Source: a virus. Taken from it: DNA of 44,008 bases. Positions 3,838-25,991 of this stretch are shown here, one piece after another. Within the stretch, counting starts at the first letter, position 1; each line of letters begins with the position of its first letter. The stretch covers positions 1 to 44,008 of the IMG/VR virus record IMGVR_UViG_3300038678_000061. One strand, given 5' to 3'. Under the pieces are notes generated by a model. That model had not been told where the DNA came from. It did no database searches and was given only the letters and a program-made list of their open reading frames with translations. Position numbers and translations under genes: made by a program.

Positions 3838-4623
3838 ATGGCTGAACAAATAACAACACATGCAGCAGACGCAAAGGCAAGGCTTCTTTTCCAGTATCAA
3901 GGGAAAACTAACATTGAAGCCCTGTTGGATTCTCTAGGCGGGCAGCAAATACAGGACTTAGAAGATATCTTATTTGATATCAATTCAAGGCTTGATATTG
4001 ACAATAGTGAAGGGGTGCAGTTAGACAATATTGGAACTATAGTCGGGCAACCTAGAAACGGTCAAGATGATATGACCTATAAGCTGTTTTTGAAAGCAAA
4101 GGCGGGGGTCAATGTCTCTGAAGGTGATGTCGAAAGAGTCTTATCAGTATGGAAGATTATTACAGGCGGAACGATTGTTCAAGTTATAGATCAATATCCA
4201 GCGGCAATTGAATTATTTTCAGATGTTCCTGTTCCTGGCGAACTTGAAGTTGAAGCCTTTGCCTTAATGCAAGAGGTTGTCGGCGCGGGAATCAGCATAA
4301 CCTCTTCAATCATATCGCCTGACAATGCTTTCGGCTTTGAGAATAGTATTGATACCTTGGGTTTTGATGATTTATTCTCTACAGGTCAAAACACTTCTGC
4401 GAGCGCTTTTAAATTAATAGATTCAGGCGCTAATTTTGGGCCAGACGGCACAGTTCCAGGAAGTGAAGCTATTGAAGTAATGGGAAATGTAAAAGCACTA
4501 GTGGTAAGCATAGATAGCACAATTCAATTAACGTTAGATACCGATATATTCCCATCTACCCCTCTTTATTATGAGGTAATAGATGGTGGCGGTGGTGGTC
4601 TTTCAGAAGTTCAAGGTTCATAA
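3838..4623 (+). CDS. DUF2612-like baseplate protein
   Basis: A 261-residue protein beginning four bases after the J stop. The first 160 residues fit the DUF2612 pattern: 'LLDSLGGQQIQDLEDILFDINSRLDIDNSEGVQLDNIGTIVGQPR', then 'YKLFLKAKAGVNVSEGDVERVLSVWK'. The C-terminus ends in a Gly-rich stretch. The position between gpJ and the fibre fits a gpI-like connector that attaches fibres to the wedge. Confidence 0.72.
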   Translation: MAEQITTHAADAKARLLFQYQGKTNIEALLDSLGGQQIQDLEDILFDINSRLDIDNSEGVQLDNIGTIVGQPRNGQDDMTYKLFLKAKAGVNVSEGDVERVLSVWKIITGGTIVQVIDQYPAAIELFSDVPVPGELEVEAFALMQEVVGAGISITSSIISPDNAFGFENSIDTLGFDDLFSTGQNTSASAFKLIDSGANFGPDGTVPGSEAIEVMGNVKALVVSIDSTIQLTLDTDIFPSTPLYYEVIDGGGGGLSEVQGS

Positions 4624-4635
4624 AGGAGATATATA

Positions 4636-6297
4636 ATGCCAAGAAATAATCCAAAACCCGGCGGGAAAGTAGATTGGGACGCAACAGGCAACATCATCGA
4701 GCCAAATGCAGGGAGGAAAACTTCAGGTTGGTTGTTTAGCGTTAAACCACCGGCTCAAAATTTCAATTGGCTTTGGAATTTGCTCAGCTTACAACAATTT
4801 TATTCGAATGCACAAGTCGAAGATTGGATTGTTATTGATTCCGATGCCGATGAGGGCGATTATTCAACATTGACGGCATATCTAGCAGATTCCCCAGTAG
4901 CAGGGGATAGACTACTCATCAAAGAAGACCAGACCGTTACGGTTCAAACAGTCATCCCTTCAGATATAACGATAAAATTTCTCGACGGTGCCGGTATTCT
5001 TTGCGCGACAAATATCGCAACGTCAGTTTTGCAATTAGGTAGCAATATTGTTATTGAAAGCGTTTTAAATGTTATTCTAAGTCAAACAGGAACAACAGAC
5101 AAGGCAGTTGAATTCAACGGCGATAACGTAACAGGTCAAATCAATATTGAAAATGCTTCAACGGGAATATTGACAACAGCATTTAGTATGAATTCAGGAA
5201 AAGAAGGAAATAAAATTGATGGTATTATCAGTAACACAGGGGCCGGAGCAATAACAAATAAATTTACCGATAACAGCTCAAAGGCATCGAATGATTTAAT
5301 CGTTCGCGATTTAGACGAAGATAATTTGATTATTTCACATTCACACGCCGCGCCAAACAATTTGTTGATTAATGGTTGTTTCTCTGTCTTTCAAAGAGGC
5401 GCAACATTCGATTCGGGAACAACCCCTGCGAATGATAATGATACATATTTGGCTGATAGATGGAAGCTGCTTTCAGATGGGGATGATATTGTTGATGTTT
5501 CAAAAGATGAATCAGGGAGGCCGACCGGAAGTAAATCGTCAATCAAATTTGATATTGAAACTGCAAATAAAAAATTCGGCATTATTCAATTTGTTGAAGG
5601 GATTAATACCCGGAAAATAATAGGCGGAAAGGTATTTTTATCTTTCAAAGCCAAAGTTTCAGGCGGCGCAACAATTAACAATTTGAGAGCGGCGGTTTTG
5701 AGTTGGGATGGAACGGAAGATACATTAACCTCTGATGTTGTTGCGGCATGGGGCGCAGCCGGTGTCAATCCGACATTGGTTGGAAATTGGACTTTTGAGA
5801 ATATAGCTTCGAATTTAGAATTATCAACATCTTATCGAACTTTTAAAATCAAGAATATAGATATTGACACAGCCAGTGCAAAGAATATTGCGGTGTTTAT
5901 TTGGGTTGATGATACGGATGCAACGATCGGGGATATTGTCAATATTACAGATATTCAACTTGAAGCTGGGGATAAAGTTTCATCTTTTTTAGACAGAGAC
6001 ATTCAAACAGAGATCGCTCAATGCGAGAGATATTATGAGGTTAGTGATGGCAATAACTCCATATTTAGCTCAGACGTTACTAACGCTCTCGCATACCGTA
6101 ACAATATCGGTTTTGTCGTAACAAAGAGATTTAATCCGACTGTGGTTCTTACGAACTTCGGCTCGCCGTCTAATTTTCCGGCAGCGACAGGCCCGGTTAG
6201 TTTTATCGGGGCGCATGGTTTTTCAGAGCAGAGAGTAGCCAACGGTACTGGTAACGGCTTTTTTGGGTCAGAATGGACAGCGGAATCCGAATTATAA
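4636..6297 (+). CDS. Tail fibre / receptor-binding protein
   Basis: A 553-residue fibre-like protein with a strong ribosome-binding site (aaaggag) eight bases before the ATG. The N-terminus is a short attachment segment. The middle part has beta-solenoid-like repeats (D/N-rich, 'NIENASTGIL...NKIDGIISNTGAG'). From about residue 240 there is the common fibre module 'NLLINGCFSVFQRG...YLADRW', followed by a carbohydrate-binding-like beta sandwich ending 'QLEAGDKVSSFLDRDIQTEIAQCERYYEV'. It probably recognises the host surface. No chaperone domain is visible at the C-terminus. Confidence 0.82.
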   Translation: MPRNNPKPGGKVDWDATGNIIEPNAGRKTSGWLFSVKPPAQNFNWLWNLLSLQQFYSNAQVEDWIVIDSDADEGDYSTLTAYLADSPVAGDRLLIKEDQTVTVQTVIPSDITIKFLDGAGILCATNIATSVLQLGSNIVIESVLNVILSQTGTTDKAVEFNGDNVTGQINIENASTGILTTAFSMNSGKEGNKIDGIISNTGAGAITNKFTDNSSKASNDLIVRDLDEDNLIISHSHAAPNNLLINGCFSVFQRGATFDSGTTPANDNDTYLADRWKLLSDGDDIVDVSKDESGRPTGSKSSIKFDIETANKKFGIIQFVEGINTRKIIGGKVFLSFKAKVSGGATINNLRAAVLSWDGTEDTLTSDVVAAWGAAGVNPTLVGNWTFENIASNLELSTSYRTFKIKNIDIDTASAKNIAVFIWVDDTDATIGDIVNITDIQLEAGDKVSSFLDRDIQTEIAQCERYYEVSDGNNSIFSSDVTNALAYRNNIGFVVTKRFNPTVVLTNFGSPSNFPAATGPVSFIGAHGFSEQRVANGTGNGFFGSEWTAESEL

Positions 6298-6729: not shown

Positions 6730-7863
6730 ATGAAAAAGTTATTTGTAATCTTCCTTTTATTAATTCCGATATCTGCCTATTCCCTAGTAGTAAGCGGTGT
6801 TGATGGCGGCGGCAATGCCGATACTCTCGAAGGGCAAAATGGTTCATATTATCTTGATGTTGGAAACGCGACAGGAACCTTACCGCCTTCATCATTTAAT
6901 AATATAAGTGCCGCGACAGTAAACACAACCGGCGATATATTTGCCGACGGCTTTATTGATGGCTTGAAATCAATGGGGTCGCTGTCTGATGATAATGCAG
7001 GGCTAGGAACGCCATATGATATGTTTACAACTTTTACAATATATACATCATACGGTGCAACAAGTTCTTCAAGCAATGTTACGGCTGATGCAAGTGCTGG
7101 AACTATAACGCTTGATTCAGGTGTTCCCGGTGAATTTATGTTTAGTGTAGATGCCTCGGTGACTGGCGTGAATGAGCCTGAATTAACATATGCAGTCTTT
7201 AGAAATGACACAACTGAATTAATATCCTTCGATAGACCTATTTCTGGGGTACACCATCACAGACCAACTTTTCATAGTATTTCAGGTGGCGCAACCTTTG
7301 CGAATCTAACCGCGATTAGATATCTATATGAAGCAGAAGGGGATCAAATACAGATAAATGAAGTAAACGAAACACCGGGCTTTGTATACGATATTACTTT
7401 TAATAGTAATGTGTTATATCCTACTGGCGTAGAGTTTATTAATGCTCTATATGATGGGAATAATAGTGGCGATGAGGTAGAAGTTCGGATTTTCAGCAAT
7501 ACATCATCTGCTTATCATGAAATGCGCGCCGCTGTTGGTGATTTGCCTGATGCGAAAGGGTCGGATGCGTTCAGAAATTACCGAAGAGAATTTGAAGTTC
7601 CAGAACCTATTGCAGATTATGTTAACGTGTCACTGAGAGAGACAAAAATAAAGATAATTCATACTGACCCTGGAAGTGTTGCTCATGACTTATATCTTGA
7701 TAAGTTGCAATTGCATGATGCTCATGGTACATCTGCTTTGAGTTTTAAACATATAGTTGCGCTGGCTGTTGGGGATACTATATCATTAAAAATAAAAAGC
7801 AATCAAGAGGCACCCATTTATGTGAAAAATTTACATTTTCACTTAGGGAAAGAAAGTAATTAA
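6730..7863 (+). CDS. Fibre-like protein with predicted signal peptide
   Basis: A 377-residue protein beginning two bases after the previous stop. Residues 1-18 form a signal peptide (MKK, hydrophobic core, SAYS). Right after it comes 'ADTLEGQNGSYYLD', a motif widely found at the start of phage fibre repeat domains. The rest is beta-rich with a C1q/TNF-like flavour ('GEFMFSVDASV', 'GDTISLKIKS'). The combination of an export signal with a fibre module is odd: either the signal-like stretch is a hydrophobic fibre anchor, or the protein is secreted. Confidence 0.7.
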   Translation: MKKLFVIFLLLIPISAYSLVVSGVDGGGNADTLEGQNGSYYLDVGNATGTLPPSSFNNISAATVNTTGDIFADGFIDGLKSMGSLSDDNAGLGTPYDMFTTFTIYTSYGATSSSSNVTADASAGTITLDSGVPGEFMFSVDASVTGVNEPELTYAVFRNDTTELISFDRPISGVHHHRPTFHSISGGATFANLTAIRYLYEAEGDQIQINEVNETPGFVYDITFNSNVLYPTGVEFINALYDGNNSGDEVEVRIFSNTSSAYHEMRAAVGDLPDAKGSDAFRNYRREFEVPEPIADYVNVSLRETKIKIIHTDPGSVAHDLYLDKLQLHDAHGTSALSFKHIVALAVGDTISLKIKSNQEAPIYVKNLHFHLGKESN

Positions 7864-8196: not shown

Positions 8197-8894
8197 TGTC
8201 ATTAGCTGGTGGGCTTATATCCGTATGGCACATGAACGGCGACTGGCTCGACTCTTTCGGGAGTAATGATGCTACAGCCGTCGGGGCCACTTTTGACTCG
8301 GTTAATCAAAAGCTAGGGGTTGCTTGTGGGAATTTTGACGGCACAGACGACCTCATTCATGTTGGGCCGGCTGTTATTCAATCGGCAGGAACTCTCTCTT
8401 TTTGGATGCGCCCTAATTGGAATAGCGGAGATTCGGCCAATAGGATTTTATTTGAGTCAATAGCTGGAAACAGCTGGTTTAGACTGCAGCATTTCCAAGA
8501 TAATAACTGGTATTTCCAGTGGGTAACTGGCGGGATAGGTTTTAATGTAGTAATATCGTCAGCGACAATGGTAGTAGTGAGTGGGGTCTGGTCCCTTATG
8601 ACGATAACTTGGGACGATGCGGCAAATACAATGGAGTGGTTTCAGAATACCGTATCTAAAGGAGTTAGAACGCTTCCTCTTACGACCCACGCCCTAACAA
8701 ATAATTTCTATATGGGGGCGACAAGCGGAAATACTATTAATTATAACGGCAAATACGATGAAGTTGCCACGTGGGGCAGAGTTTTAACCTCCGCGGAAAT
8801 AGCTGAGGTGTGGAACGGAGGTTCAGGGATAGAAATACCGCCAACAATAGCCGCCGCAGGTCGCAGGCGTAGAATGCTTTTAGGGAGAAATTAA
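8196..8894 (+). CDS. LamG/concanavalin-like domain protein
   Basis: A 232-residue protein. Almost all of it is a laminin-G-3/concanavalin-like jelly roll: 'LISVWHMNGDWLDSFGSNDATAVGATFD', 'ACGNFDGTDDLIHVG', 'GTLSFWMRPNW', 'GVWSLMTITWD', and 'YNGKYDEVATWGRVLTSAEI'. The end is a basic Arg-rich tail. Such domains bind glycans and often form phage receptor-binding tips or fibre accessory proteins. It is coupled to its neighbours by a TAATG overlap upstream and a directly abutting gene downstream. Confidence 0.8.
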   Translation: MSLAGGLISVWHMNGDWLDSFGSNDATAVGATFDSVNQKLGVACGNFDGTDDLIHVGPAVIQSAGTLSFWMRPNWNSGDSANRILFESIAGNSWFRLQHFQDNNWYFQWVTGGIGFNVVISSATMVVVSGVWSLMTITWDDAANTMEWFQNTVSKGVRTLPLTTHALTNNFYMGATSGNTINYNGKYDEVATWGRVLTSAEIAEVWNGGSGIEIPPTIAAAGRRRRMLLGRN

Positions 8895-9776: not shown

Positions 9777-9986
9777 ATGTCACTAGACGAAATATCAAGG
9801 GCGATCGGCGGCATGGAATCTTCTATAAAATCACTACACGAAGATCATCAAGAATTGAGGCTAGACGTTAAAACAATGCTTAAGGATTTACAGAGCCAAC
9901 GAACTAGAATAGCCTTTATGTCTGGGGGGCTGGGCGCGATTATGGGCTTTGCGTCCGCATGGATAAAAACTCATTGGGGGAAATAA
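9777..9986 (+). CDS. XhlA-like membrane protein of the lysis cassette
   Basis: A 69-residue protein with a heptad-rich N-terminal coiled coil (about residues 5-45) and one hydrophobic helix near the C-terminus ('FMSGGLGAIMGFASAWI'), ending with basic residues. This is the layout of haemolysin XhlA-type proteins that accompany endolysin genes. The stop overlaps the next start (TAATG). It could tether at the inner membrane and act with the holin. Confidence 0.7.
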   Translation: MSLDEISRAIGGMESSIKSLHEDHQELRLDVKTMLKDLQSQRTRIAFMSGGLGAIMGFASAWIKTHWGK

Positions 9987-10318
9987 TGACTACATCACAA
10001 AAACAACGACGATTTTCATGGTTAGTAAGTTGTCTTATTGATTGGGCCTACAAAAATGGCTATGAAATTGTTCTTGGTGAAACATATAGAACCAAAGAGC
10101 AGCAAGCTATATATGTTCAAACTGGCAAATCAAAAACTATGAATAGTAAGCATTTAAAATGCCTGGCAATCGATATAAATTTATTCAAAGATAATAAATA
10201 TTTAACTGAAACGCCTGATTATGAGCCACTTGGCAAATATTGGAAATCACTTGACCCCGAGTGTGTCTGGGGCGGTGATTGGGGGTGGGATGGTGGTCAT
10301 TTTCAATTTACTAAATAA
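9986..10318 (+). CDS. Endolysin, M15-type L-alanyl-D-glutamate/D-Ala peptidase
   Basis: A 110-residue single-domain peptidase. Zinc ligands are visible as H56 and D63 (H-x6-D in 'SKHLKCLAID') and H105 in 'GGHFQF', with the upstream 'GETYRTKEQQAIY' segment typical of VanY/M15 lysins. I chose the ATG at 9986, which overlaps the previous stop and follows a ggggg-a-rich ribosome site; an earlier in-frame ATG at 9959 would add nine residues of poor fit. It cleaves peptide cross-links in peptidoglycan. It has no cell-wall-binding domain, as expected for a Gram-negative host. Confidence 0.9.
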   Translation: MTTSQKQRRFSWLVSCLIDWAYKNGYEIVLGETYRTKEQQAIYVQTGKSKTMNSKHLKCLAIDINLFKDNKYLTETPDYEPLGKYWKSLDPECVWGGDWGWDGGHFQFTK

Positions 10319-12961: not shown

Positions 12962-13128
12962 GACCTGAGTGCCTAAAATATGATGGTTGCCGGTTGCCTG
13001 TTGATTTATGCAATAGTGATTGTTCTGACCTGGTGACAGCGGAGGAGGGTATCAATCCTTTTGCCGAGGCAGAGGACAGGGGTTGCGCTGAATTACACTT
13101 TAAACAGGATATGGGAAATTTGACATAA
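12958..13128 (+). CDS. Small Cys-rich protein
   Basis: A 56-residue protein. I chose the ATG at 12958, which overlaps the previous stop, over an upstream in-frame ATG at 12937. It contains 'PECLKYDGCRLPVDLCNSDCSDL' and a later 'GCAE', a likely metal-binding knuckle of a type common in small phage proteins. No partner identified. Confidence 0.55.
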   Translation: MRPECLKYDGCRLPVDLCNSDCSDLVTAEEGINPFAEAEDRGCAELHFKQDMGNLT

Positions 13129-13184
13129 GGATTTCCATATATCAGAAAGTATGTACTAATTTAATATAAGGGAGAAGTGAGAAA

Positions 13185-13358
13185 ATGGAACATAGATTCT
13201 ATGATAAAGATATAGAAAAAACCGAGACTGTTTACAATAAAGACAAAACACCACACACAATAGAATTGGTATTCGTGGAAGGTACGGCAGCAGTTCTTTT
13301 AAATAGAGAAGATGTAATATCTCTCGCGAAATATTTTAAAATTGTGAAATTAATTTGA
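13185..13358 (+). CDS. Hypothetical small protein
   Basis: A 57-residue protein with a good ribosome site (gggagaag) and ATG at 13185. The sequence has a beta hairpin-like centre ('HTIELVFVEGTAAVLLNRED') and a C-terminal helix ('VISLAKYFKIVKLI'). No family recognised. Its last codons overlap the -35 box of the next promoter. Confidence 0.5.
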   Translation: MEHRFYDKDIEKTETVYNKDKTPHTIELVFVEGTAAVLLNREDVISLAKYFKIVKLI

Positions 13359-13383
13359 CAAACAATCCGCTCTTTGAGACAAT
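13355..13383 (+). promoter_or_regulatory. Sigma-70-type promoter before the recombination module
   Basis: A perfect TTGACA at 13355-13360, a 17-base spacer and GACAAT at 13378-13383. It lies about 140 bases before the coiled-coil gene that leads the ERF/YqaJ operon; the leader carries a terminator-like hairpin. Confidence 0.7.
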
Positions 13384-13458
13384 AAGAATGTAGCAACAAG
13401 ACATAACAGCGTTGGGGCTGGCGATAAGCAAACAGGTTCTCCCGCATGGGAAAACTTT

Positions 13459-13499
13459 AAGCCTCAATGGATATCCCAACATATCCGGCGAGGCTTTTT
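13459..13499 (+). terminator. Terminator-like hairpin in the leader of the recombination operon
   Basis: Outer stem AAGCCTC/GAGGCTT and inner stem GGATAT/ATATCC (loop CCCAAC) are followed by TTT. It lies between the promoter at 13355 and the first gene at 13526, so it either ends a leader RNA of about 110 nt or acts as an attenuator or antitermination target. Confidence 0.75.
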
Positions 13500-13525
13500 A
13501 CGTTTATAAGATAATGGAGGGTAAG

Positions 13526-13711
13526 ATGAAACTTTCAGAAAATTTAAAACGCCAGAGAAACGAAAACCCTGATGAATGGTTAATGGGTGAGTTTATAAGG
13601 AAAGCTCAAGTCCTTGAAGTAGAAAACGAACTCCAAGATAAAATAATAAAAACACAACAGGAACATATTGACGCTTTAAAAGAATTGATAACACTAAATA
13701 AAGGAGAGTAA
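13526..13711 (+). CDS. Small coiled-coil protein
   Basis: A 61-residue, highly charged helical protein ('NLKRQRNENPDEWLMGEFIRKAQVLEVENELQDKIIKTQQEHIDALKELI') with heptad spacing. I chose the ATG at 13526 because gagggta lies just upstream; an earlier in-frame start at 13412 would read through the terminator hairpin. It leads the recombination genes, two bases before ERF, and may be an accessory factor. Confidence 0.6.
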   Translation: MKLSENLKRQRNENPDEWLMGEFIRKAQVLEVENELQDKIIKTQQEHIDALKELITLNKGE

Positions 13712-13712
13712 G

Positions 13713-14462
13713 ATGACCAAAACAAACGAACTTGAGGTAGTAAACGAAAACAAACAAATTGCGGCCGGCGGAATCGATGTTAATCAAATCATGGCGCTTG
13801 CAATCGAAAAAGGCGATCTTGATAAAGTCGAAAAAATGATGGAGTTGCAAGAACGTTATGAGAAGAGAGAGGCGGAAAAAGCCTATCATGTAGCGATGAC
13901 GGCATTCAAGGCAAATCCGCCACAAATCAACAAAGATGCTCATGTTAATTATACTCATTCAAAAGGAACCACCGATTATAAACATGCTACGCTTGCCAAC
14001 GTAACAAGCAAAATCAATATGGCTTTAAGTGAGCATGGGCTTTCGGCAGCGTGGACAACATCACAGGAAAAAGGAATTGCCGTAACTTGCAAAATAACTC
14101 ATATCATGGGGCATTCTGAAAGCACAACACTTGAAGCCGCCGCCGATGCTTCGGGAGGAAAGAACGCAATTCAGGCAATCGGTTCAACGGTAACATATCT
14201 TGAAAGATACACTTTGCTTGCGTTGACCGGCCTTGCTACACATGAAGAAGACGACGACGGGGCCGGATCCGAAGCCATATATATTGACGATGAGCAAATG
14301 GCAGCTATCAATGAGTGGATAGAGTCTATCGGCGGCGATTGTCTTCAGAACTTTAAGAAATACATAGGTGTTGACGAGCTTGACAAAATCCTGGCAAAAG
14401 ACTACAAGAAGGCTATTACCGCTCTTAAGAATACAGAGAAAAAGAAAAAGGGGGCAAAATGA
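13713..14462 (+). CDS. erf: ERF-family single-strand annealing protein
   Basis: A 249-residue protein. Residues about 40-185 match the ERF family: 'AYHVAMTAFKANPPQINKDAHVNYTHSKGTTDYKHATLANV' is the conserved first part, and 'AIQAIGSTVTYLERYTLLALTGLAT' is the signature helix, followed by an acidic linker and a C-terminal basic tail. ERF proteins anneal complementary single strands during phage recombination and genome circularisation. It is coupled to the YqaJ exonuclease (overlap of four bases) and an SSB-like gene, forming a complete recombination module. Confidence 0.92.
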   Translation: MTKTNELEVVNENKQIAAGGIDVNQIMALAIEKGDLDKVEKMMELQERYEKREAEKAYHVAMTAFKANPPQINKDAHVNYTHSKGTTDYKHATLANVTSKINMALSEHGLSAAWTTSQEKGIAVTCKITHIMGHSESTTLEAAADASGGKNAIQAIGSTVTYLERYTLLALTGLATHEEDDDGAGSEAIYIDDEQMAAINEWIESIGGDCLQNFKKYIGVDELDKILAKDYKKAITALKNTEKKKKGAK

Positions 14463-15079
14463 TCATCGAAAATTTTGAGCAAATGTCGCCAGAATGGTTC
14501 GCGGCAAGGGTTGGCATTCCTTCGGCTTCGGCTTTTGATAAGTTGATTACAAGCAAGGGCGCTTTATCTACATCGAGACAGAAATTGATTTACAAGTTAG
14601 CCGGTGAAAGGGTGCTTGGTGAAAAGGAAGATGGTTATATAAATGGCAGTATGCAGCGCGGCATTGACCTTGAGCCTGAAGCAAGGGCTCTTTTTGAATT
14701 AATAACGGGGCTTGAGGTTAAGGAAGTCGGCCTTTGCTATTACGATGAAAGAAAAGACCGTAGCTGTTCGCCGGATGGACTTGTTGAAACTGGAATGACT
14801 CTCATGGAAGGGCTTGAAATAAAGTGTCCTGAGTTGGCGACTCATGTTGAGTATCTTATTGGTAACAAGCTGCCTACTAAGTACTTTGCTCAGGTTCAGG
14901 GCTCCATGTATATTGCCGGCCTTGAAAAATGGCATTTTATGTCGCACTATCCTTCAATGAAACCTTTAATAGTAGAGGTTTTGCGTGATGAGATATGGAT
15001 TGCAAAACTGGATAAGGCGCTGAATGATTTTGTGATTGAACTTGATGATACCCATAAACTTTTAATTGAAGAGGTATAA
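14459..15079 (+). CDS. YqaJ/lambda Exo-type exonuclease
   Basis: A 206-residue PD-(D/E)XK nuclease of the YqaJ family. Visible marks are '[22 protein letters not shown]' at the start, '[14 protein letters not shown]', the metal-binding 'SPDGLV', and 'GLEIKCP' (E-x-K). The '[23 protein letters not shown]' segment is also typical. It should resect double-stranded ends to load the upstream ERF protein. It is translationally coupled to erf and followed two bases later by the SSB-like gene. Confidence 0.93.
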
Positions 15080-15380: not shown

Positions 15381-15572
15381 TTATTGTGAGGTGGCGGAAT
15401 AGTAGACGCGACAAATTGGACGATATAATGTTGAGCTAAGGTAGTTGCTTCATCCAATTCTAGATGATTTATGCCAGTACATGCTCATTGCAGGGTGACT
15501 ATACGAGTTTCGATAGGCGCAATCCTAATCGGTAAACTAAAACTACTCGTCAAATCCCTGCCCTCACAATAA
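15381..15572 (+). ncRNA. tRNA-like RNA 1 with interrupted T-loop
   Basis: Ends pair over 11 bases (15381-15391 with 15562-15572). Inside is a tRNA-Leu-type D-arm (TG, GCG stem 15394-15396/15407-15409, loop GAATAGTAGA). A long stem AATTGGA/TCCAATT (15414-15420/15453-15459) replaces the anticodon arm. The T-stem GCAGGG/CCCTGC (15490-15495/15556-15561) has a T-loop (T...TCAAAT) split by an inserted stem ACGAGT/ACTCGT (15503-15508/15545-15550), which itself carries a hairpin CGATAGG...CCTAATCG. A second copy with compensating changes lies at 25793-25972. No canonical anticodon or CCA end is evident. It is not a standard tRNA and I know no matching family. Confidence 0.8.
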
Positions 15573-15588
15573 TTATTAAGGAGTCAAT

Positions 15589-16017
15589 ATGAAAGTCTGC
15601 TTTAAGTGTGGTTTAAGAAAGTCATTGTTTGAATTTTATAAGCACAAAAAAATGACAGACGGGCATTTAGGTAAATGTATTGTTTGCACTAAAGAAGATG
15701 TCTTGGAGCATAGGGTCGCCAATATAGATAAGATCAGAGAATATGACCGGAACAGGGGTAAGTTACCCCATCGTAAAAAACTCAGCACTGAAATAACCAA
15801 AAAGATACGAGAGGATTTACCCCACGTTTATAAAGCTCATACTACTCTCAACAACGCTATCCGTGACGGAAAGATAACTAAGCCATTGGTTTGCTCCATC
15901 TGTAAAAAAGAAAAACATCTCCACGGTCACCACGACGATTATTCAAAGCCTTTAGATGTAGAGTGGATGTGTGCGGTTTGTCATAAAGCTTTTCACAGAG
16001 ATTTAGACAATTTCTAG
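15589..16017 (+). CDS. HNH-type zinc-binding protein
   Basis: A 142-residue protein with an N-terminal CxxC...CxxC zinc ribbon ('CFKCGLRKS...CIVC') and a C-terminal HNH-like core: 'CSICKKEKHLHGHHDDYSKPLDVEWMCAVCHKAFH'. The HGHH and the CxxC pairs are the metal and catalytic positions of small phage HNH proteins. It is probably a nicking or homing-type endonuclease. It follows the tRNA-like RNA by 16 bases with an aaggag ribosome site, so it may share the promoter at 15350. Confidence 0.72.
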   Translation: MKVCFKCGLRKSLFEFYKHKKMTDGHLGKCIVCTKEDVLEHRVANIDKIREYDRNRGKLPHRKKLSTEITKKIREDLPHVYKAHTTLNNAIRDGKITKPLVCSICKKEKHLHGHHDDYSKPLDVEWMCAVCHKAFHRDLDNF

Positions 16018-16026
16018 CATTTAATT

Positions 16027-16097
16027 TTGACGGGGGGGGAAACTCTGAGGGAATGGTTCCTTGCGAATATGTTGTAGAGACTAACCGCCCCCGTCAA
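16027..16097 (+). other. Long-range hairpin in the intergenic leader of the cassette array
   Basis: A 10-bp perfect stem TTGACGGGGG/CCCCCGTCAA (16027-16036/16088-16097) encloses about 51 bases with smaller internal pairings (CTCT/AGAG, AGGGAA/TTCCTT). It lies between the HNH-type gene and the first attC-like site. The remaining bases 16098-16146 hold no gene. It may be a structured RNA or a DNA fold; no T tract follows it. Confidence 0.55.
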
Positions 16098-16146
16098 TCC
16101 TTAATTTCAATAAGCTCACTATTGCAGTGGGTTCATTAAAGGGAAG

Positions 16147-16352
16147 GATAACGATTTAGCTCAGGGTCTTCGGACGCTGGAGGAGTGTGGAAGATGCAAA
16201 GACATGAAAATATGATATGTGAAATTTGCGGAAAAGAGAATGAAAACAAACACCAAGACTACTGTGTGGATTTAGGTTGTTCGGGGAGAATGATATCCCT
16301 TAAAGCCCAGACAGACCCCGTGGCCGAAGTACCTTGCAGCGGCGGGGTTATA
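16147..16352 (+). other. attC-like recombination site A
   Basis: Outer boxes GATAAC (16147-16152) and GTTAT (16347-16351) pair. Inner boxes GCTCAGGGTCTTCGG (16159-16173) and CCGAAGTACCTTGCAGC (16324-16340) pair imperfectly with two unpaired extra bases on the right arm, as in integron attC sites. The loop of about 150 bases contains GGAGGAG, an ATG eight bases later, and the first part of the next gene. Same family as sites C and F. Confidence 0.75.
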
Positions 16353-16514
16353 AAGCCCTGCCCGTTTTGTGGCGGGCCAGGGAAAACATATACCTGGGAT
16401 GTGAAGGAACATTTAGTTTTCTGTGGCAACGAAGATTGCGAGACAAGGCCCCAGACGAAAGTGAAAATAAATGATAGAGAAGCCATAGAAGTATGGAACA
16501 GAAGGGCTTTATAA
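16194..16514 (+). CDS. Cassette protein: Cys-rich head fused to Lar-like zinc ribbon
   Basis: A 106-residue protein read from the ATG at 16194, eight bases after GGAGGAG. Residues 1-50 (two CxxC-type pairs, 'ICEICGKENEN...CVDLGCSGRM') are encoded in the loop of site A; the frame then crosses the GTTAT box and continues as 'KPCPFCGGPG...VFCGNEDCETRP...EAIEVWNRRAL', the Lar restriction-alleviation/zinc-ribbon pattern. The stop lies inside the left box of site B. The Lar-like part usually forms a complete small protein by itself, so the head looks like an added module. Confidence 0.72.
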   Translation: MQRHENMICEICGKENENKHQDYCVDLGCSGRMISLKAQTDPVAEVPCSGGVIKPCPFCGGPGKTYTWDVKEHLVFCGNEDCETRPQTKVKINDREAIEVWNRRAL

Positions 16515-16636
16515 CGAACAAGATCAGGGGCTTGCGGGCCACCTGAGACAAAGGAGGAAGCAAGACAATGACCGGAGAAGCAAAAAGCTCAGATGAAACG
16601 AGTGGTAGCGAGTCCCTTGCAGCGCCTGGGTTAGAT
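16510..16636 (+). other. attC-like recombination site B
   Basis: Left outer box TATAAC (16510-16515) carries the stop codon of the preceding gene; right box GTTAGAT begins at 16630 and fits GTTRRRY exactly. Inner boxes CAGGGGCTTGC... and ...GTCCCTTGCAG are partly complementary. The loop holds an aaggagg ribosome site and the ATG at 16568. Confidence 0.62.
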
Positions 16637-16804
16637 GGCGTGATGGTTAATAGGCAAGACCTAGAAAACTTGATACATTATGCTGATGGAATTGCCAAAA
16701 TATTAAAAGATGCTGGATATGAAGGGAAAGCCACTGCATTAGAAGATAGATATATGAAAATAGCTGATTCGATAGCGATGGGAGGCAGAAACCATGAAAC
16801 ATAA
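16568..16804 (+). CDS. Cassette protein, helical
   Basis: A 78-residue protein whose first 20 residues ('MTGEAKSSDETSGSESLAAP') are encoded in the loop of site B and resemble the head of the protein at 17895. After the GTTAGAT box comes a helical module ('VNRQDLENLIHYADGIAKILKDAGYEGKATALEDRYMKIADSI') of unknown function. It overlaps the next gene by 11 bases. Confidence 0.6.
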   Translation: MTGEAKSSDETSGSESLAAPGLDGVMVNRQDLENLIHYADGIAKILKDAGYEGKATALEDRYMKIADSIAMGGRNHET

Positions 16805-16958
16805 ATTAGTTAAAAGATTAGAAGCAGAGAATAAAAGGCTGAAAGCTGAATTGAGAGCGGCTAGAAAAGAAAAAATAAATAATTGCCCGATGTGCAGTGG
16901 CGTAACGGATGAATCACTAGATAGGATGAAAGAAGTAGCGATGTCTAAGTGCCACTAG
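16794..16958 (+). CDS. Cassette protein, coiled coil with CPMC motif
   Basis: A 54-residue protein starting inside the preceding gene (ggaggcagaaaccATG). The N-terminal half is a basic coiled coil ('LVKRLEAENKRLKAELRAARKEK'), followed by 'NCPMCSG' and a C-terminal Cys/His. The stop TAG lies four bases before the left box of site C. Function unknown. Confidence 0.55.
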   Translation: MKHKLVKRLEAENKRLKAELRAARKEKINNCPMCSGVTDESLDRMKEVAMSKCH

Positions 16959-16961
16959 CCA

Positions 16962-17166
16962 ACTAACGATTAAGCTCAGGGTCTTCGGACGCTGGAGGAG
17001 ATGGAAAGATGGAAAGAATATCAAAGGAATATATTTGTAAATGCGGGAACACCATGACAACTGATTGGCCATGTAAAGACATAGAGTGCCCCTGTGGTGG
17101 AATAATGCGCCCCCTTAAAGCCCAGACAGCACCCGTGGCCGAAGTACCTTGCAGCGTGGGGTTATC
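16962..17166 (+). other. attC-like recombination site C
   Basis: Outer boxes CTAAC (16963-16967) and GTTATC (17161-17166). Inner boxes GCTCAGGGTCTTCGG (16974-16988) and CCGAAGTACCTTGCAGC (17139-17155), identical to those of site A and nearly those of F. The loop contains GGAGGAG, ATG eight bases later, and the head of the next gene. Confidence 0.75.
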
Positions 17167-17329
17167 TTGCGTGTGGATTAACGTGAAAGAACGATTACCT
17201 AGAGCAGGACAAATAGCATTATGGTGGAATGAAGATATAAGGATAATAGAATTCGGTTCATCTGGGAGTTTCAACGGTGAAAATGTGACCCATTGGATGC
17301 CATTGCCTAAGCCACCACAAGCAAGATAA
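17009..17329 (+). CDS. Cassette protein: Cys-rich head fused to DUF551 domain
   Basis: A 106-residue protein. Residues 1-50, encoded in the loop of site C, have 'CKCGNTM...CKDIECPCGG' and the 'LKAQTAPVAEVPCS' linker shared with the protein at 16194. After the GTTATC box comes a complete DUF551 domain: 'WINVKERLPRAGQIALWW...VTHWMPLPKPP'. Other DUF551 proteins in this genome (23880, 26677) begin almost at the 'W-I' position without such a head. The stop lies in the left box of site D. Confidence 0.75.
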   Translation: MERISKEYICKCGNTMTTDWPCKDIECPCGGIMRPLKAQTAPVAEVPCSVGLSCVWINVKERLPRAGQIALWWNEDIRIIEFGSSGSFNGENVTHWMPLPKPPQAR

Positions 17330-17379
17330 CGACCTGAGATAAGCAGCAGGGTAGCTGTCTGCTTCATTGATTTGTTATG
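17325..17379 (+). other. attC-like recombination site D (short form)
   Basis: The shortest site, 55 bases. Outer boxes ATAAC (17326-17330)/GTTAT (17374-17378) pair, and inner boxes AAGCAG (17341-17346)/CTGCTT (17359-17364) pair perfectly, separated by unpaired central spacers. This is the canonical attC layout. The stop codon of the DUF551 fusion overlaps the left box. Confidence 0.78.
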
Positions 17380-17407
17380 TTGCGCGACTATTAAAGAGGG
17401 GGATACA

Positions 17408-17596
17408 ATGGAATACAGAATATTTACATCTAAATCATTCATTGATTTAGAAACAACCATAAATAATCAATTAAAAAATGGGTGGGAATTACAAGGTGGC
17501 GTGTCAGTAGCTGAATTTACACGTTCAGAAATGATTTATTGCCAAGCCATGACAAAAGCAAAGCAACATAACTTTGAGTTAACCGTGAACGGATAA
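17408..17596 (+). CDS. Cassette protein, DUF1737-like
   Basis: A 62-residue protein read from ATG 17408 (ribosome site gaggggga). It matches the DUF1737 pattern: 'YRIFTSKSFIDLETTINNQLKNGWELQGGVSV...IYCQAMTK'. Members are small alpha/beta proteins found on phages and mobile elements, with no known function. It lies wholly within its cassette, after the right box of site D, and its 3' end runs into the left half of site D2. Confidence 0.75.
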   Translation: MEYRIFTSKSFIDLETTINNQLKNGWELQGGVSVAEFTRSEMIYCQAMTKAKQHNFELTVNG

Positions 17597-17689
17597 GAGA
17601 GGTGATGTATGAAAAGTAAAAGTGTTATGAAAAGAAAGGCAATTCAAAAAGGGACAGCGGGTAGTGATACGGTTGAACGGCTTGTTATG
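17567..17689 (+). other. attC-like recombination site D2
   Basis: Outer boxes CATAAC (17567-17572) and GTTATG (17684-17689) pair over six bases. Inner boxes GTTAACCGT (17578-17586) and ACGGTTGAAC (17669-17678) pair perfectly except for one extra base on the right arm, the hallmark of attC. The loop contains gaggtg and the ATG of the next gene at 17609. Confidence 0.78.
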
Positions 17690-17851
17690 AAGCATTGCCC
17701 GTTTAGGATGGTATCAAAGGAGATTGGACATAAGCCATACACAATGGAAATAGAGGGCTTGTGGCATGTACAGTGCACATGCGGGGCAAGGGGGCCGATT
17801 TCGCCAACGGAGGATTGGGCAATTAAGTCTTGGGCTAGGTCTGCTTCATAA
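17609..17851 (+). CDS. Cassette protein, Lar-like zinc ribbon with basic head
   Basis: An 80-residue protein. A basic 26-residue head is encoded in the loop of site D2; the frame passes through the GTTATG box (read as Val-Met) and continues 'KHCPFRMVSKE...GLWHVQCTCGARGPISPTEDWAIKSW', a Lar/zinc-ribbon pattern. The first CxxC is only partly kept (HCPF), the second (CTCG) is intact. The Met at 17687 could be an alternative start. The stop lies in the left box of site E. Confidence 0.65.
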   Translation: MKSKSVMKRKAIQKGTAGSDTVERLVMKHCPFRMVSKEIGHKPYTMEIEGLWHVQCTCGARGPISPTEDWAIKSWARSAS

Positions 17852-17974
17852 CGTGTGACTTAACGGGCTTGCGAGCCTAAAAAGGAGAAGACCAATGAGC
17901 GAAAAGGACAAGAAAGAGAGCGAAGGCCAAAACAAACCGAGTGGCAGCGAGTCCGGGTTGAAGGATGGGTTATC
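17847..17974 (+). other. attC-like recombination site E
   Basis: Outer boxes ATAAC (17848-17852) and GTTAT (17969-17973). Inner arms (CTTAACGGGCTTGCGAGCC against the reverse complement of the bases before 17969) align with one extra base on the right arm. A second possible right box, GTTGAAG at 17958, makes the right edge uncertain. The loop holds aaaggagaagacca and ATG 17895. Confidence 0.65.
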
Positions 17975-18125
17975 TTGCATGCACCTTAGGGCGGATAACA
18001 GTTGCAATTTTTCAGAGGAAGGCTGTAACGCTTGGGCAGATTGGCATAATCGCCACAGAAAAGATGAGCCGATAGACCATTTTTGCATATTGCCAGTAAA
18101 AGAACGTGATGCATTTAACGCATAG
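17895..18125 (+). CDS. Cassette protein, Cys-rich
   Basis: A 76-residue protein. The head 'SEKDKKESEGQNKPSGSESG' is encoded in the loop of site E and resembles the head at 16568. After the GTTATC box the module 'CMHLRADNSCNFSEEGCNAWADWHNRHRKDEPIDHFCIL' has four Cys plus His residues that could bind metal. The stop lies three bases before the left box of site F. Function unknown. Confidence 0.62.
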   Translation: MSEKDKKESEGQNKPSGSESGLKDGLSCMHLRADNSCNFSEEGCNAWADWHNRHRKDEPIDHFCILPVKERDAFNA

Positions 18126-18128
18126 CAA

Positions 18129-18330
18129 GATAACGATTAAGCTCAGGGTCTTCGGACGCTGGAGGAGTATGAAAGATGGACACATGTATAAATAAAAAAT
18201 GTATGTATCATGACAAAGACGAAAATAACCCGAACAGTTGCTTAACGGAAATAGACATTACCATTTGCCCGAATCACCTTAAAGAAAAAACAGAACCCGC
18301 ATTCGAAGTACCTTGCAGCGCCGGGTTATC
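18129..18330 (+). other. attC-like recombination site F
   Basis: Outer boxes GATAAC (18129-18134) and GTTATC (18325-18330) are perfectly complementary. Inner boxes GCTCAGGGTCTTCGG and TTCGAAGTACCTTGCAGC pair with the same unpaired extra bases as in A and C. The loop contains GGAGGAG at 18161-18167 and ATG at 18176, the same spacing of eight as in A and C, but a different coding sequence. Confidence 0.75.
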
Positions 18331-18484
18331 TGCGGGCTTTAATGGCTGCATAAACACTGCTATAAAAGCTTTGCGTTATCTAGCCGACAACGAGAGGCCC
18401 ATTGGGGGGCAAGAAAATTATAATAGCGAGCACCTTTTACAGACGGCAGATGAGTTGGAGCGAACTATAAAGACAAGCAGATAA
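18176..18484 (+). CDS. Cassette protein: Cys-rich head fused to helical module
   Basis: A 102-residue protein. The head 'MDTCINKKCMYHDKDENNPNSC...ICPNHLKEKTEPAFEVPCS' is encoded in the loop of site F. After the GTTATC box a helical module follows ('FNGCINTAIKALRYLADNERPIGGQENYNSEHLLQTADELERTIK'). The stop codon is the TAA inside the left box of site G. Function unknown. Confidence 0.65.
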   Translation: MDTCINKKCMYHDKDENNPNSCLTEIDITICPNHLKEKTEPAFEVPCSAGLSAGFNGCINTAIKALRYLADNERPIGGQENYNSEHLLQTADELERTIKTSR

Positions 18485-18561
18485 CGTGTGAGCTAACAGG
18501 GCGGCAAAACACGTTGATTAAAAACAGACACGCCCCTAGCCGCTCCCGTTGAGCGTTGGGT
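18480..18561 (+). other. attC-like recombination site G
   Basis: Left box GATAACG (18480-18486), right box GCGTTGGGT (18553-18561), a common attC right end. Inner arms CTAACAGGGCGGC (18493-18505) and GCCGCTCCCGTTGAG (18539-18553) pair with extra bases on the right arm. A competing local hairpin AACGTGT/ACACGTT also exists. It holds no start codon; the next gene begins after the right box. Confidence 0.78.
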
Positions 18562-18590
18562 TCTAAGGCGTGTATCAAATGGAGGTAAAA

Positions 18591-18755
18591 ATGGCTTTAA
18601 TAGTTATTAGTGTAGATAGAGAGGATCTTCCACCACATACCGATGAGCAATTTGAAGAGTGGGTAAAATATGAGGTTGGACACTTAGGCGGGATATCATG
18701 TGACAACCCAATGAGTGACCGGGACTTAGATGCTTATGTGCGTAACTTTGAATAA
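18591..18755 (+). CDS. Cassette protein, hypothetical
   Basis: A 54-residue acidic protein read from ATG 18591 (ribosome site tggaggt). It begins 'ALIVISVDREDLPPHTDEQFEEWVKYEVGHLGG' and ends 'DRDLDAYVRNFE', a small alpha/beta protein of a type common in phage accessory regions; no family name known. It lies entirely within its cassette between sites G and H. Confidence 0.6.
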   Translation: MALIVISVDREDLPPHTDEQFEEWVKYEVGHLGGISCDNPMSDRDLDAYVRNFE

Positions 18756-18759
18756 GCCT

Positions 18760-18912
18760 TAGAACGATTAAGCTAACCGGATCGACAACGTAGTTGGCGA
18801 GTCCAAGGCGATGAGCGCCTATGTCGACGGGTAAAGCTTAATAAAAACAAGGAGTTAACTATGGACAAATGCAAGCATAAAGAAAAGCCTGGGGTTGAGC
18901 GCGGGGTTAGGC
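18760..18912 (+). other. attC-like recombination site H
   Basis: Left box AGAAC (18761-18765), right box GTTAGGC at 18906-18912, fitting GTTRRRY. Inner boxes GCTAACC (18772-18778) and GGTTGAGC (18893-18900) pair with one extra base. The loop itself has a strong nested fold: ATTAAGCT/AGCTTAAT, TCGACA/TGTCGA and AGGCG/CGCCT around 18767-18842. It also carries an aaggag ribosome site and the ATG at 18861. Confidence 0.72.
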
Positions 18913-18944
18913 CCAACATGAGGAGGTTAGAATGGAAAAACTGA
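18861..18944 (+). CDS. Short peptide crossing site H
   Basis: A 27-residue frame with a good aaggag ribosome site ('MDKCKHKEKPGVERGVRPNM'). It runs through the right box of site H and ends 13 bases inside the next gene. In site H the downstream frame does not match, so this looks like an unproductive version of the head fusions seen at the other sites, or a leader that couples translation to 18932. Confidence 0.4.
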   Translation: MDKCKHKEKPGVERGVRPNMRRLEWKN

Positions 18945-19153
18945 TTATAGAGAACAGGAGCAATCTTAGCATGGAAGATGCCTTAATTAGAGTGAAACAC
19001 GTTGTATCGGATGGGAAAATAAGCAAGACTGGCAAAGGTAAGCAATATTGCTTTATGACAACGTGGTCAGATGGAACATACGTGTGCGCTGATAAGAATA
19101 AAAAAAGTGACAGATTGATAGTTGGGTTTGAAGAGAGACATGTGAAGGCCTAA
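18932..19153 (+). CDS. Hypothetical protein, last member of the cassette array
   Basis: A 73-residue protein with an aggagg ribosome site. 'SMEDALIRVKHVVSDGKISKTGKGKQYCFMTTWSDGTYVCADKNKKSDRLIVGFEE' suggests a small beta-rich domain. The stop lies in GCCTAAC, which fits an attC left box (RYYYAAC), but I find no convincing right half nearby, so the array may end here. Confidence 0.6.
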   Translation: MEKLIIENRSNLSMEDALIRVKHVVSDGKISKTGKGKQYCFMTTWSDGTYVCADKNKKSDRLIVGFEERHVKA

Positions 19154-19178
19154 CATTGTAATATACGGAACGCCGGTG

Positions 19179-19508
19179 ATGCAAATGAATGAAAAGCGAT
19201 CAAAATGGCGTAAAAACCAAATAGCCAAGCGCAAAAGGTTGATTCTTGAGCGCCCGGCTCCTGACTATCCTGAAGAGATAAATACTCGTGAGCACTGGGA
19301 TGAAATTGTGATTAGGCGGCACTCGCCACAAGGCACAAAGGAAACGGTAATTACTTTATTTATGTGCCCGACTAAGATAGATTCTCATTTCTACTCTCGT
19401 GATGGGTATATGCGGTTGCTGAATAGTCGGCCCGTTAGGGTAGGATCGTATAAAGTAGGCGAATTAATTGGTAAACTATTAGGAAGGAGGGGGGTAGCTC
19501 ATGAGTGA
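19179..19508 (+). CDS. Hypothetical basic protein
   Basis: A protein of about 109 residues; ATG 19179 is preferred, although GTG 19176 and ATG 19185 are possible and the ribosome site is weak. The N-terminus is very basic ('KRSKWRKNQIAKRKRLILE'), followed by a charged middle ('YPEEINTREHWDEIVIRRHSPQGTKETVITLF'). The stop overlaps the VRR-NUC gene start, so it may assist that nuclease. No domain recognised. Confidence 0.55.
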   Translation: MQMNEKRSKWRKNQIAKRKRLILERPAPDYPEEINTREHWDEIVIRRHSPQGTKETVITLFMCPTKIDSHFYSRDGYMRLLNSRPVRVGSYKVGELIGKLLGRRGVAHE

Positions 19509-19857
19509 ATCAACCGAGCAACAAGCGGTAGTACAATGGTTTAATATAAAATACCCTAAATACCGGCTTATCAGTGTTCCTAATGGGCAGATGATCGGGG
19601 GGCGGAATAAGTTTGCGTTGATTAAGAAGTATAAGGCTGAGGGAATGACCAGTGGCGTGTCGGATCTTCTCTTGTGCGTTGCCAGGAAGGGCTACCATGG
19701 TCTATGGATTGAGATGAAGGATAAAGGTAAAAAGGCAAGCAGCTTATCGCCGGATCAAATATACTGGCAGTCAGAGATGAGGGATGCCGGGTATAAGGCT
19801 GAGTGGGCAGCAGGGTTTGATGAGGCTAAGAAAATCATAGAGGAGTATTTGTCATGA
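19501..19857 (+). CDS. VRR-NUC domain nuclease
   Basis: A 118-residue single-domain PD-(D/E)XK nuclease of the VRR-NUC family: 'ESTEQQAVVQWFNIKYP', 'VPNGQMIGG', then catalytic D55 in 'GVSDLLL' and E71-x-K73 in 'GLWIEMKDK', and 'LSPDQIYWQSEMRDAGYKAEWAAGFDEA'. Stand-alone viral VRR-NUC proteins are thought to cut branched DNA such as Holliday junctions. It has an aaggagg ribosome site and overlaps both neighbours. Confidence 0.92.
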   Translation: MSESTEQQAVVQWFNIKYPKYRLISVPNGQMIGGRNKFALIKKYKAEGMTSGVSDLLLCVARKGYHGLWIEMKDKGKKASSLSPDQIYWQSEMRDAGYKAEWAAGFDEAKKIIEEYLS

Positions 19858-20079: not shown

Positions 20080-20201
20080 TTAGCGAGGCCAGGAATGAAA
20101 CACAAACTTAAAAATAGAAACCCCTTGTTATGGATGCCGGTTGCTGAAAGGCGCTGGAGCGGCTCATTCCCGTTCGCTAACTCCATAACAGGGGGTTTGT
20201 G
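20080..20201 (+). other. Long hairpin with possible pseudoknot, intergenic
   Basis: A 17-bp stem (20118-20134 with 20182-20198, one G-T pair) closes a 47-base loop. In addition TTAGCGA (20080-20086) upstream pairs perfectly with TCGCTAA (20174-20180) in that loop, giving a pseudoknot, and CACAAAC (20101-20107) could pair with GTTTGTG (20195-20201) as an alternative. The gene-free stretch 20034-20218 holds nothing else. No T tract follows. It could be an RNA, a replication origin fold or a recombination site; the stem contains GTTATG/CATAAC like the cassette sites. Confidence 0.65.
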
Positions 20202-20218
20202 CGTTTAAGGGGCTTATT

Positions 20219-23883: not shown

Positions 23884-24095
23884 TATGTGATTTATGTAGG
23901 GAAGCTATGGGGATGCCAAAAATGGATTGGATTAATATTGAAGACAAGTTGCCAGAAGATGAAGAAGAATGGGTGTTGACGTATGAACCTTTATATGGAG
24001 TTCAATTTTGTTCGCTCAATAGTGCTATATGGAGAAATACTAGACCTGGATTTTGGATGCAAGCACCTGAACCACCAAAGGAGGAATCATGCTAA
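23880..24095 (+). CDS. DUF551-like protein
   Basis: A 71-residue protein with a short Cys-containing head ('ICDLCREAMGMPK') followed by 'DWINIEDKLPEDEEEWVLTYEPLYGVQFCS...GFWMQAPEPP', the DUF551 pattern with W-I-x-V/I-E-D-x-L-P and the final P-x-P-P. It is the second of three DUF551-type genes in this genome. Function unknown in the family. Confidence 0.75.
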   Translation: MICDLCREAMGMPKMDWINIEDKLPEDEEEWVLTYEPLYGVQFCSLNSAIWRNTRPGFWMQAPEPPKEESC

Positions 24096-24199
24096 CTATT
24101 AAAGAAGTAAAGAAGGAATATTTCAGGATAGAAAAGCTATTAGGCAAGACGGCATTAAGTAGAGACCAGTATAATCAAAGGATAAACCATGAAAGCTAA
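24089..24199 (+). CDS. Short hypothetical peptide
   Basis: A 36-residue frame with a perfect ggagg ribosome site seven bases upstream, overlapping the DUF551 stop. 'LTIKEVKKEYFRIEKLLGKTALSRDQYNQRIN' is a single charged helix. Coding status rests on the ribosome site and tight overlaps. Confidence 0.5.
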   Translation: MLTIKEVKKEYFRIEKLLGKTALSRDQYNQRINHES

Positions 24200-25792: not shown

Positions 25793-25972
25793 TGAGAGAT
25801 AGTGGCGGAATAGGTAAACGCTGTTTGGGAATCCTTCCTCTGATTGCTGGTATATGTGCCAGAACGTAGAAAAGGAAATTGTAGGGTGACTATACAGGTA
25901 ACAAATTGATAGCTTAATAAATAGGGGACAATAGCTGGCGCCCCATCCTGTCAAATCCCTGCCTATCTCTCA
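25793..25972 (+). ncRNA. tRNA-like RNA 2 with interrupted T-loop
   Basis: Ends pair over 10 bases, TGAGAGATAG/CTATCTCTCA (25793-25802/25963-25972). The D-arm is GCG/CGC (25805-25807/25819-25821) with loop GAATAGGTAAA, including the GG and A of real D-loops. T-stem GTAGGG/CCCTGC (25881-25886/25957-25962). The T-loop is split by an inserted stem ACAGG/CCTGT (25894-25898/25947-25951). The middle has CTGGTA/TGCCAG and TTCCT/AGGAA stems. Compared with RNA 1, D-arm, T-stem and the flanks GGGTGACTATAC and GTCAAATCCCTGC are conserved while outer and inserted stems change on both strands. It lies in the leader of the terminase genes. Confidence 0.8.
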
Positions 25973-25991
25973 CATTTAAGAAAGGTAAGTT

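Follow-up and report, generated by a model that had tools for sequence, protein, structure and literature searches.

Which way do integron cassettes run when they lie in a phage genome, and what could move them there? Integrons are bacterial gene-capture platforms whose cassette genes normally point away from the attI site, and because of this the platform promoter reads the newest cassette first. We analysed a 44-kb IMG/VR virus record (IMGVR_UViG_3300038678_000061; its whole stretch of 44,008 nucleotides is called the window here) that carries a myophage gene set (terminase, portal, head protease, major head protein, sheath, tape measure, baseplate and Erf-type annealing protein). Nine units, each composed of an attC site and a gene, span 16152–19153, downstream of the Erf gene. 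The first-pass annotation had described integron-type cassettes inside a phage devoid of integrase, and this description is supported. We consider it very probable that this is an integron array without its own integrase (a cluster of attC sites lacking an integrase, CALIN) in a myophage-like genome, and that its nine cassettes are flipped.

The sites have the structure expected of attCs. Left (AAC) boxes end at 16152, 16515, 16967, 17330, 17572, 17852, 18134, 18485 and 18765, and right (GTT) boxes start at 16347, 16630, 17161, 17374, 17684, 17969, 18325, 18560 and 18906. They alternate with small open reading frames (ORFs) close to where they had been placed, except that the eighth right box (GTTCTAAGG) starts at 18560 instead of 18555, and that a tenth AAC box (GGCCTAAC, 19147–19154), which closes the array, had been missed. 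The nine cassette bodies between these boxes span 16347–19154; each starts with GTTNNNN and ends with NNNNAAC, the two ends of the same body being reverse complements. Such pairing is a prediction of integron biology, because both ends of a cassette come together in one attC when it is circular. The summed match score for own-end pairing over the nine bodies was 89, compared to a permutation mean of 47. At positions 5–14 it was 53 against a mean of 15, and none of 200,000 permutations scored as high (p<=5e-6). The outer boxes of a single cassette are, thus, complementary to each other. A chaining search gave the window a score of 48, the maximum among 20 shuffles being 21. Alignment of the left arm with the reverse complement of the right arm revealed inner boxes having 1–2 extra bases about six pairs apart (for example, GCT-CAGGGT-CTTCGG versus GCTGCAAGGTACTTCGG), so that paired outer boxes (AAC/GTT) and paired inner boxes with extrahelical bases are both present. 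This alignment was used in place of minimum-free-energy folding for the long sites, where folding of single sites with DNA parameters did not recover the attC hairpin unaided.

We also built a covariance model (CM) from eight training sequences, seven Desulfobacterota attCs and that of aadA1, with no phage sites among them. The aadA1 sequence served as a control as well, and a 50-nt stretch overlapping it matched plasmids exactly. This bacterial model matched the minus strand of the window at 17324–17380 (25.9 bits; E=7.3e-5 for the window as a whole), against 6.2 bits on the plus strand. It also detected attCs in the published phages TJE1, PH101 and MW202573 and, weakly, in P12002L. An Rfam scan of the window gave no matches.

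The polarity of these sites carries the main finding. Arrays were found in six other phages (G001–G006), of which G001 is a 46-kb relative largely colinear with the window; taken by itself the G001 array is weak evidence, as its chaining score is little above that of shuffles. The arm bearing the extra bases was determined by a fixed-spacing test, which replaced a noisy loose-gap automatic alignment (47 right, 15 left and 4 ties). Read in the sense of the genes, 48 of 66 phage sites favoured the right arm for the extra bases (left in 5, tie in 13), as did 8 of the 9 window sites (left in none, tie in one). In the canonical aadA1 control they are on the left arm (score 25.5 versus 11.5), and therefore the window sites are reversed; the right-arm base that the first-pass annotation had likened to attC is real, but it marks the opposite polarity. 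The CM agreed with this: all 17 matches down to E=0.07 at the six other-phage loci were opposite to the cassette genes, whereas in the Desulfobacterota control integrons attCs and genes were on the same strand.

With the integrase gene intI drawn at the right-hand end, 66 of the 70 phage cassette ORFs that could be assigned are directed toward it, compared to 1 of 14 in bacterial arrays near intI. The former count omits two units with no clear ORF and orients five intI-less phages by the intI side predicted from attC polarity. The latter excludes a unit corresponding to the intI gene and three units belonging to a chain distant from intI, several bacterial control contigs having yielded no usable chain near intI. 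The usual arrangement, in which the gene lies on the attC strand with the attC 3′ of it (recombination does not need this), is hence not what the phages show, 66 of the 70 being opposite. In G004 and G006 the genes are read toward the end where intI lies, and transcription of intI leads away from the array; this gives normal intI-attI geometry on the minus strand.

Taken together, the true attC polarity in the window is in all probability that of the minus strand, opposite to the cassette genes. Judged from sequence, the mobile unit read with the genes is, with similarly high confidence, attC followed by gene, and its limits are at AA^C (minus-strand G^TT). The first-pass annotation had it inverted, as gene followed by attC with crossover at the top-strand GTT. 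On the minus strand the elements follow one another as in a standard integron: first a flank at about 19154 that is presumed to be the attI side, then G^TT-bounded cassettes each ending in an attC, and last the left flank. Each cassette gene, as annotated, is on the opposite strand, reads toward the putative attI and is located downstream of its own attC.

Breakpoints between phages fall where this polarity places them. A 349-bp block that is 99% identical in G002 and G006 begins at |TAAC, spans attC and body, and diverges just past the next ATAAC; its neighbours are unrelated in the two phages. This cassette is thus common to an integrase-plus (G006) and an integrase-minus (G002) phage. A duplicated unit within G006 likewise begins at |AAC. 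The identity that the flanks of the window array have with G003, G005 and G002 ends at AAC boxes or no more than a few bases from them. Locus and flanks persist among related phages and the cassettes differ, and the breakpoints of this gain and loss coincide with the core site (minus-strand G^TT). Sharp breakpoints had been anticipated at the right GTT boxes; they exist, but those of the mobile units are at the left AAC boxes.

The features of the array, from left to right, are as follows.

16098–16152, plus strand: left flank, a hairpin leader ending AAGGATAAC, kept in G002, G003 and G005; its last bases, GGATAAC (16152), are on the minus strand the far array end (G^TTATCC).
16152–16514, plus strand: unit 1, ~200-nt attC (16153–16346) whose loop has a Shine-Dalgarno (SD) sequence and ATG; gene 16194–16514, Lar domain (Pfam PF14354), stop in TAAC.
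16515–16966, plus strand: unit 2, attC with SD and ATG, 92% identical in G003; genes 16568–16804 (start within attC) and 16794–16958.
16967–17329, plus strand: unit 3, ~200-nt attC; gene 17009–17329, DUF551 (Pfam PF04448), start within attC, stop in TAAC.
17330–17571, plus strand: unit 4, short attC (17324–17380 including boxes); gene 17408–17596, DUF1737 (Pfam PF08410), own SD in the body, overruns the AAC box by 24 nt.
17572–17851, plus strand: unit 5, attC with SD and ATG, common to G002 and G006; gene 17609–17851, stop in TAAC.
17852–18133, plus strand: unit 6, attC with SD and ATG, 87% identical in G006; gene 17895–18125.
18134–18484, plus strand: unit 7, ~200-nt attC; gene 18176–18484, start within attC, stop in TAAC.
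18485–18764, plus strand: unit 8, attC; gene 18591–18755, own SD in the body.
18765–19153, plus strand: unit 9, attC; gene 18932–19153, own SD in the body, stop in TAAC.
19154–19230, minus strand: right flank, presumed attI side (minus strand ...TATTACAATG^TTAGG; putative attI function), where homology to G005 and G002 begins at or near the last AAC box.
19176–19508 and 19501–19857, plus strand: flanking phage genes, the former with no family given and the latter VRR-NUC (Pfam PF08774), with the same neighbour in G005 and G002.

The Lar, DUF551 and DUF1737 cargo named in the first-pass annotation was borne out by Pfam, and so was the tendency of genes to stop at the left box, as 5 of the 9 units in the window end exactly at the TAA of TAAC. 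What had been overlooked were the gene starts inside the sites, the related phages and the integrase genes encoded by two of them. We placed 62 cassette genes with SD-like sequences across seven phages: 27 start within their own attC, and 41 have as stop codon the TAA of the terminal TAAC core. The loop of the ~200-nt sites holds an SD, an ATG and some 45–50 codons that continue in frame past the GTT box and on into the body. Of such sites, five measured 204, 207, 207, 207 and 208 nt, the 208-nt site having a single extra base ahead of the Lar frame. As read from these annotations, many genes begin in the attC loop, and the conserved core (GTTA backwards is TAAC) serves many of them as stop codon. 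A cassette gene remains whole because attC and body move together. We had considered that ORFs crossing the GTT box reflect shuffling of N-terminal domains, and dropped this idea, since breakpoints and polarity show attC and body to be one unit.

Which integrase could act on the array? The window has none: TIGR02249, PF00589 and PF00239 were all missing, and no tyrosine or serine recombinase was found, as the first-pass annotation had stated. No intI, therefore, adjoins the array as in a complete integron. In G004 and G006 an intI lies beside the attI end. The G004 IntI matches TIGR02249 with 397 bits (cut-off 265), and G006 encodes a homologue 46% identical to it, with PF00589 above its cut-off; PF00589 was missing from G000–G003, G005 and G007. 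Searching genomes for IntI returned only ~50% relatives. A host IntI or another recombinase had been thought necessary. The host is only one of two options because two relatives encode phage IntIs, the other being IntI from a co-infecting phage. The exact 21-nt attC motif had no occurrence among 84,980 species genomes, and so no host was assigned. A DNA search of named phages with the array region found only ~80 nt at 80% in Staphylococcus phages, outside the array. In G004, a candidate attI (CTAAACATG^GTTAGC) was spotted by eye. At 4171–5676 and 6891–7403 (minus strand) this phage also has a second small array, accompanied by a copy of the attI/intI-start region (68 nt, 94% identical), and another gene for a PF00589 recombinase.

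We propose that the plus strand of each site, which would be the canonical bottom strand, folds, and that an integron integrase provided in trans, whether of host origin or from a co-infecting phage like G004 or G006, would cut at G^TT. New cassettes would enter at the right end, and old ones would be released in circular form. Transcription would come from the left, the cassette genes forming the last part of the erf/exonuclease operon, and the array may thereby serve as a plug-in site for small genes. Some cassette genes are likely to be counter-restriction functions (Lar-like in the window; relatives' cassettes include DNA methylases). Mobility in trans, the position of attI and co-transcription are proposals of this model. 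As the window has no integrase, we can only infer activity in this particular phage.

Several observations weigh against an array of flipped cassettes moved by IntI. Of the nine window sites, a single one gives a significant CM match, which lies on the minus strand, so the covariance search suggested earlier succeeded in part; the model is small, and the ~200-nt sites with long coding loops fall far outside its range. The cassette at G003 13269–13812 (L004 about 5588–6131) has a main ORF of 196 aa in the canonical direction, opposite to its neighbours, and is the only such cassette in G003. The missing integrase counts here as well. At the left flank there is an AAC box, yet the first attC differs between phages directly after it, and because of this an IntI exchange is indistinguishable there from homologous recombination. 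Could the array then be an ordinary one in the usual orientation, gene followed by attC, with genes reading through the attC into the next cassette and cassette moves shuffling protein N-termini? Genes do stop at the box opening the next site, as in canonical cassettes, many ORFs span GTT boxes, and similar attCs are seen with different bodies to their right. This arrangement is nevertheless contradicted by the polarity of the extra bases and the CM strand, by the 99%-identical G002/G006 unit, the duplicated G006 unit and both flanks, and by the position and direction of intI. Each move would, moreover, cut genes in half, and we regard it as highly unlikely.

A dead relic, consisting of cassettes taken from a bacterial integron and passively inherited, with later changes caused by homologous recombination between phages, would account for the absence of an integrase from the window; the flanking homology would permit such recombination, and the difference in the first attCs directly past the leader fits it too. 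It explains poorly that related phages keep locus and flanks yet carry different cassettes, that two phages have in common a single 99%-identical unit with unrelated neighbours, that SDs, starts and stops are maintained in 62 genes, and that integrase genes persist in G004 and G006. A relic is, therefore, also improbable, and the flipped array with its attCs on the minus strand is preferred.

The phages bearing such arrays are of different kinds. We found terminase, portal and tape measure genes in G002, terminase and head-tail adaptor in G003, tape measure and major head protein in G004, tape measure in G005, and sheath, baseplate and major head protein in G006. As these virion gene sets differ, different virions share the cassette system. 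Exact terminal repeats (127 bp in G002 and G003, 57 bp in G004) suggest that these three genomes are complete.

In the accessible text of Qi et al. 2023 (PMC9892861), attC clusters (CALINs) in virulent or uncharacterised phages are already described (TJE1, PH101/H101, P12002L and MW202573), IntI1 recombined 5 of 6 tested sites with attI1, the TJE1 and PH101 arrays are called typical, and gene-versus-attC polarity is not discussed there beyond the divergent P12002L sites. The window resembles these CALINs in having attC arrays without intI inside a phage genome, and differs in that its locus is conserved among several cassette-sharing phages. When the four published arrays were re-read with the CM, three looked flipped and TJE1 canonical. 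In PH101 (KR534323, 76.5–78.0 kb) attCs are on the plus strand and annotated genes on the minus; in MW202573 (2.0–3.7 kb) attCs are on the minus strand and genes on the plus. P12002L is probably flipped, with one weak match on the plus strand and adjoining genes on the minus. Among the titles and abstracts that our searches of open papers returned, none described flipped phage cassettes.

Sedentary chromosomal integrons of Desulfobacterota (e.g. L028/G010) have the same attC box structure with extra G/C and A bases, an IntI about 50% identical to that of G004 and the same intI-attI-array geometry, but their genes are on the attC strand and point away from intI, whereas the phage cassette genes are on the other strand. 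In the atypical Treponema integrons (PMC3607928) it is intI that is transcribed toward attI; G004 and G006 keep the usual direction of intI, away from the array, and have flipped cassette genes instead. Complete integrons of temperate phages (Vibrio p16/p42, P1 L-II and Shewanella M16-3) similarly have intI in a phage genome, and are described in PMC9892861 as pieces of host integrons or as class 1 integrons that were carried along. The IntIs of G004 and G006, in contrast, are only about 46–51% identical to each other and to the bacterial IntIs found, and adjoin small phage-type cassettes. ORF-11 of attI1 (PMC8876359) is comparable in that a coding start inside a recombination site aids cassette expression; it sits in attI and works by translational coupling, whereas in the phages it is the N-terminus of the cassette protein itself that the attC loops encode, in frame.

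A few other elements were observed near the array and elsewhere in the window. A hairpin element at 16016–16100 (TTGACGGGGGG...CGCCCCCGTCAA), immediately ahead of the leader, is 84% conserved in G002 (4294–4208), and a similar element is present in G003 near 8650. An inverted repeat at 20101–20215 (CCCCTTGTTATGGA...TCCATAACAGGGGG) includes GTTATGG/CCATAAC, resembling attC outer boxes, and is 91% conserved in G003 (14866–14969), after the array of that phage. A ~190-nt element at 15386–15575 has tRNA-Leu-type acceptor-like ends (GTGAGGTGGCGGAAT ... AAATCCCTGCCCTCAC) and an inner GCAGGGTGACTATAC; a partial second copy lies at about 25870–25980, and parts are conserved in G003 (9850–10033). It was not recognised by ARAGORN or Rfam and is possibly an undescribed phage RNA. 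Short stretches at 13080–13176 and 24089–24142 are 93–96% identical to the otherwise different phage G002, reflecting either recent exchange or conserved elements.

In the phage array the polarity of recombination is kept and that of the genes is reversed, so that a newly arrived cassette would be added last in a phage operon. We tentatively suggest, at somewhat less than even confidence, that phages keep a cassette pool of their own, in which the attC is 5′ of the gene and part of its translation (start in the loop, stop in the core), and that phages encoding an integrase serve as helpers, transferring cassettes between phages that lack one and differ in virion type. In view of the comparison, the polarity of several published phage CALINs deserves another reading. 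The analysis supplies phage genomes encoding IntI, and offers a testable model for phages exchanging small, probably anti-defence, genes by site-specific recombination. If phages do hold such a pool, the integron would be a means of phage-to-phage gene exchange and not merely a bacterial passenger.

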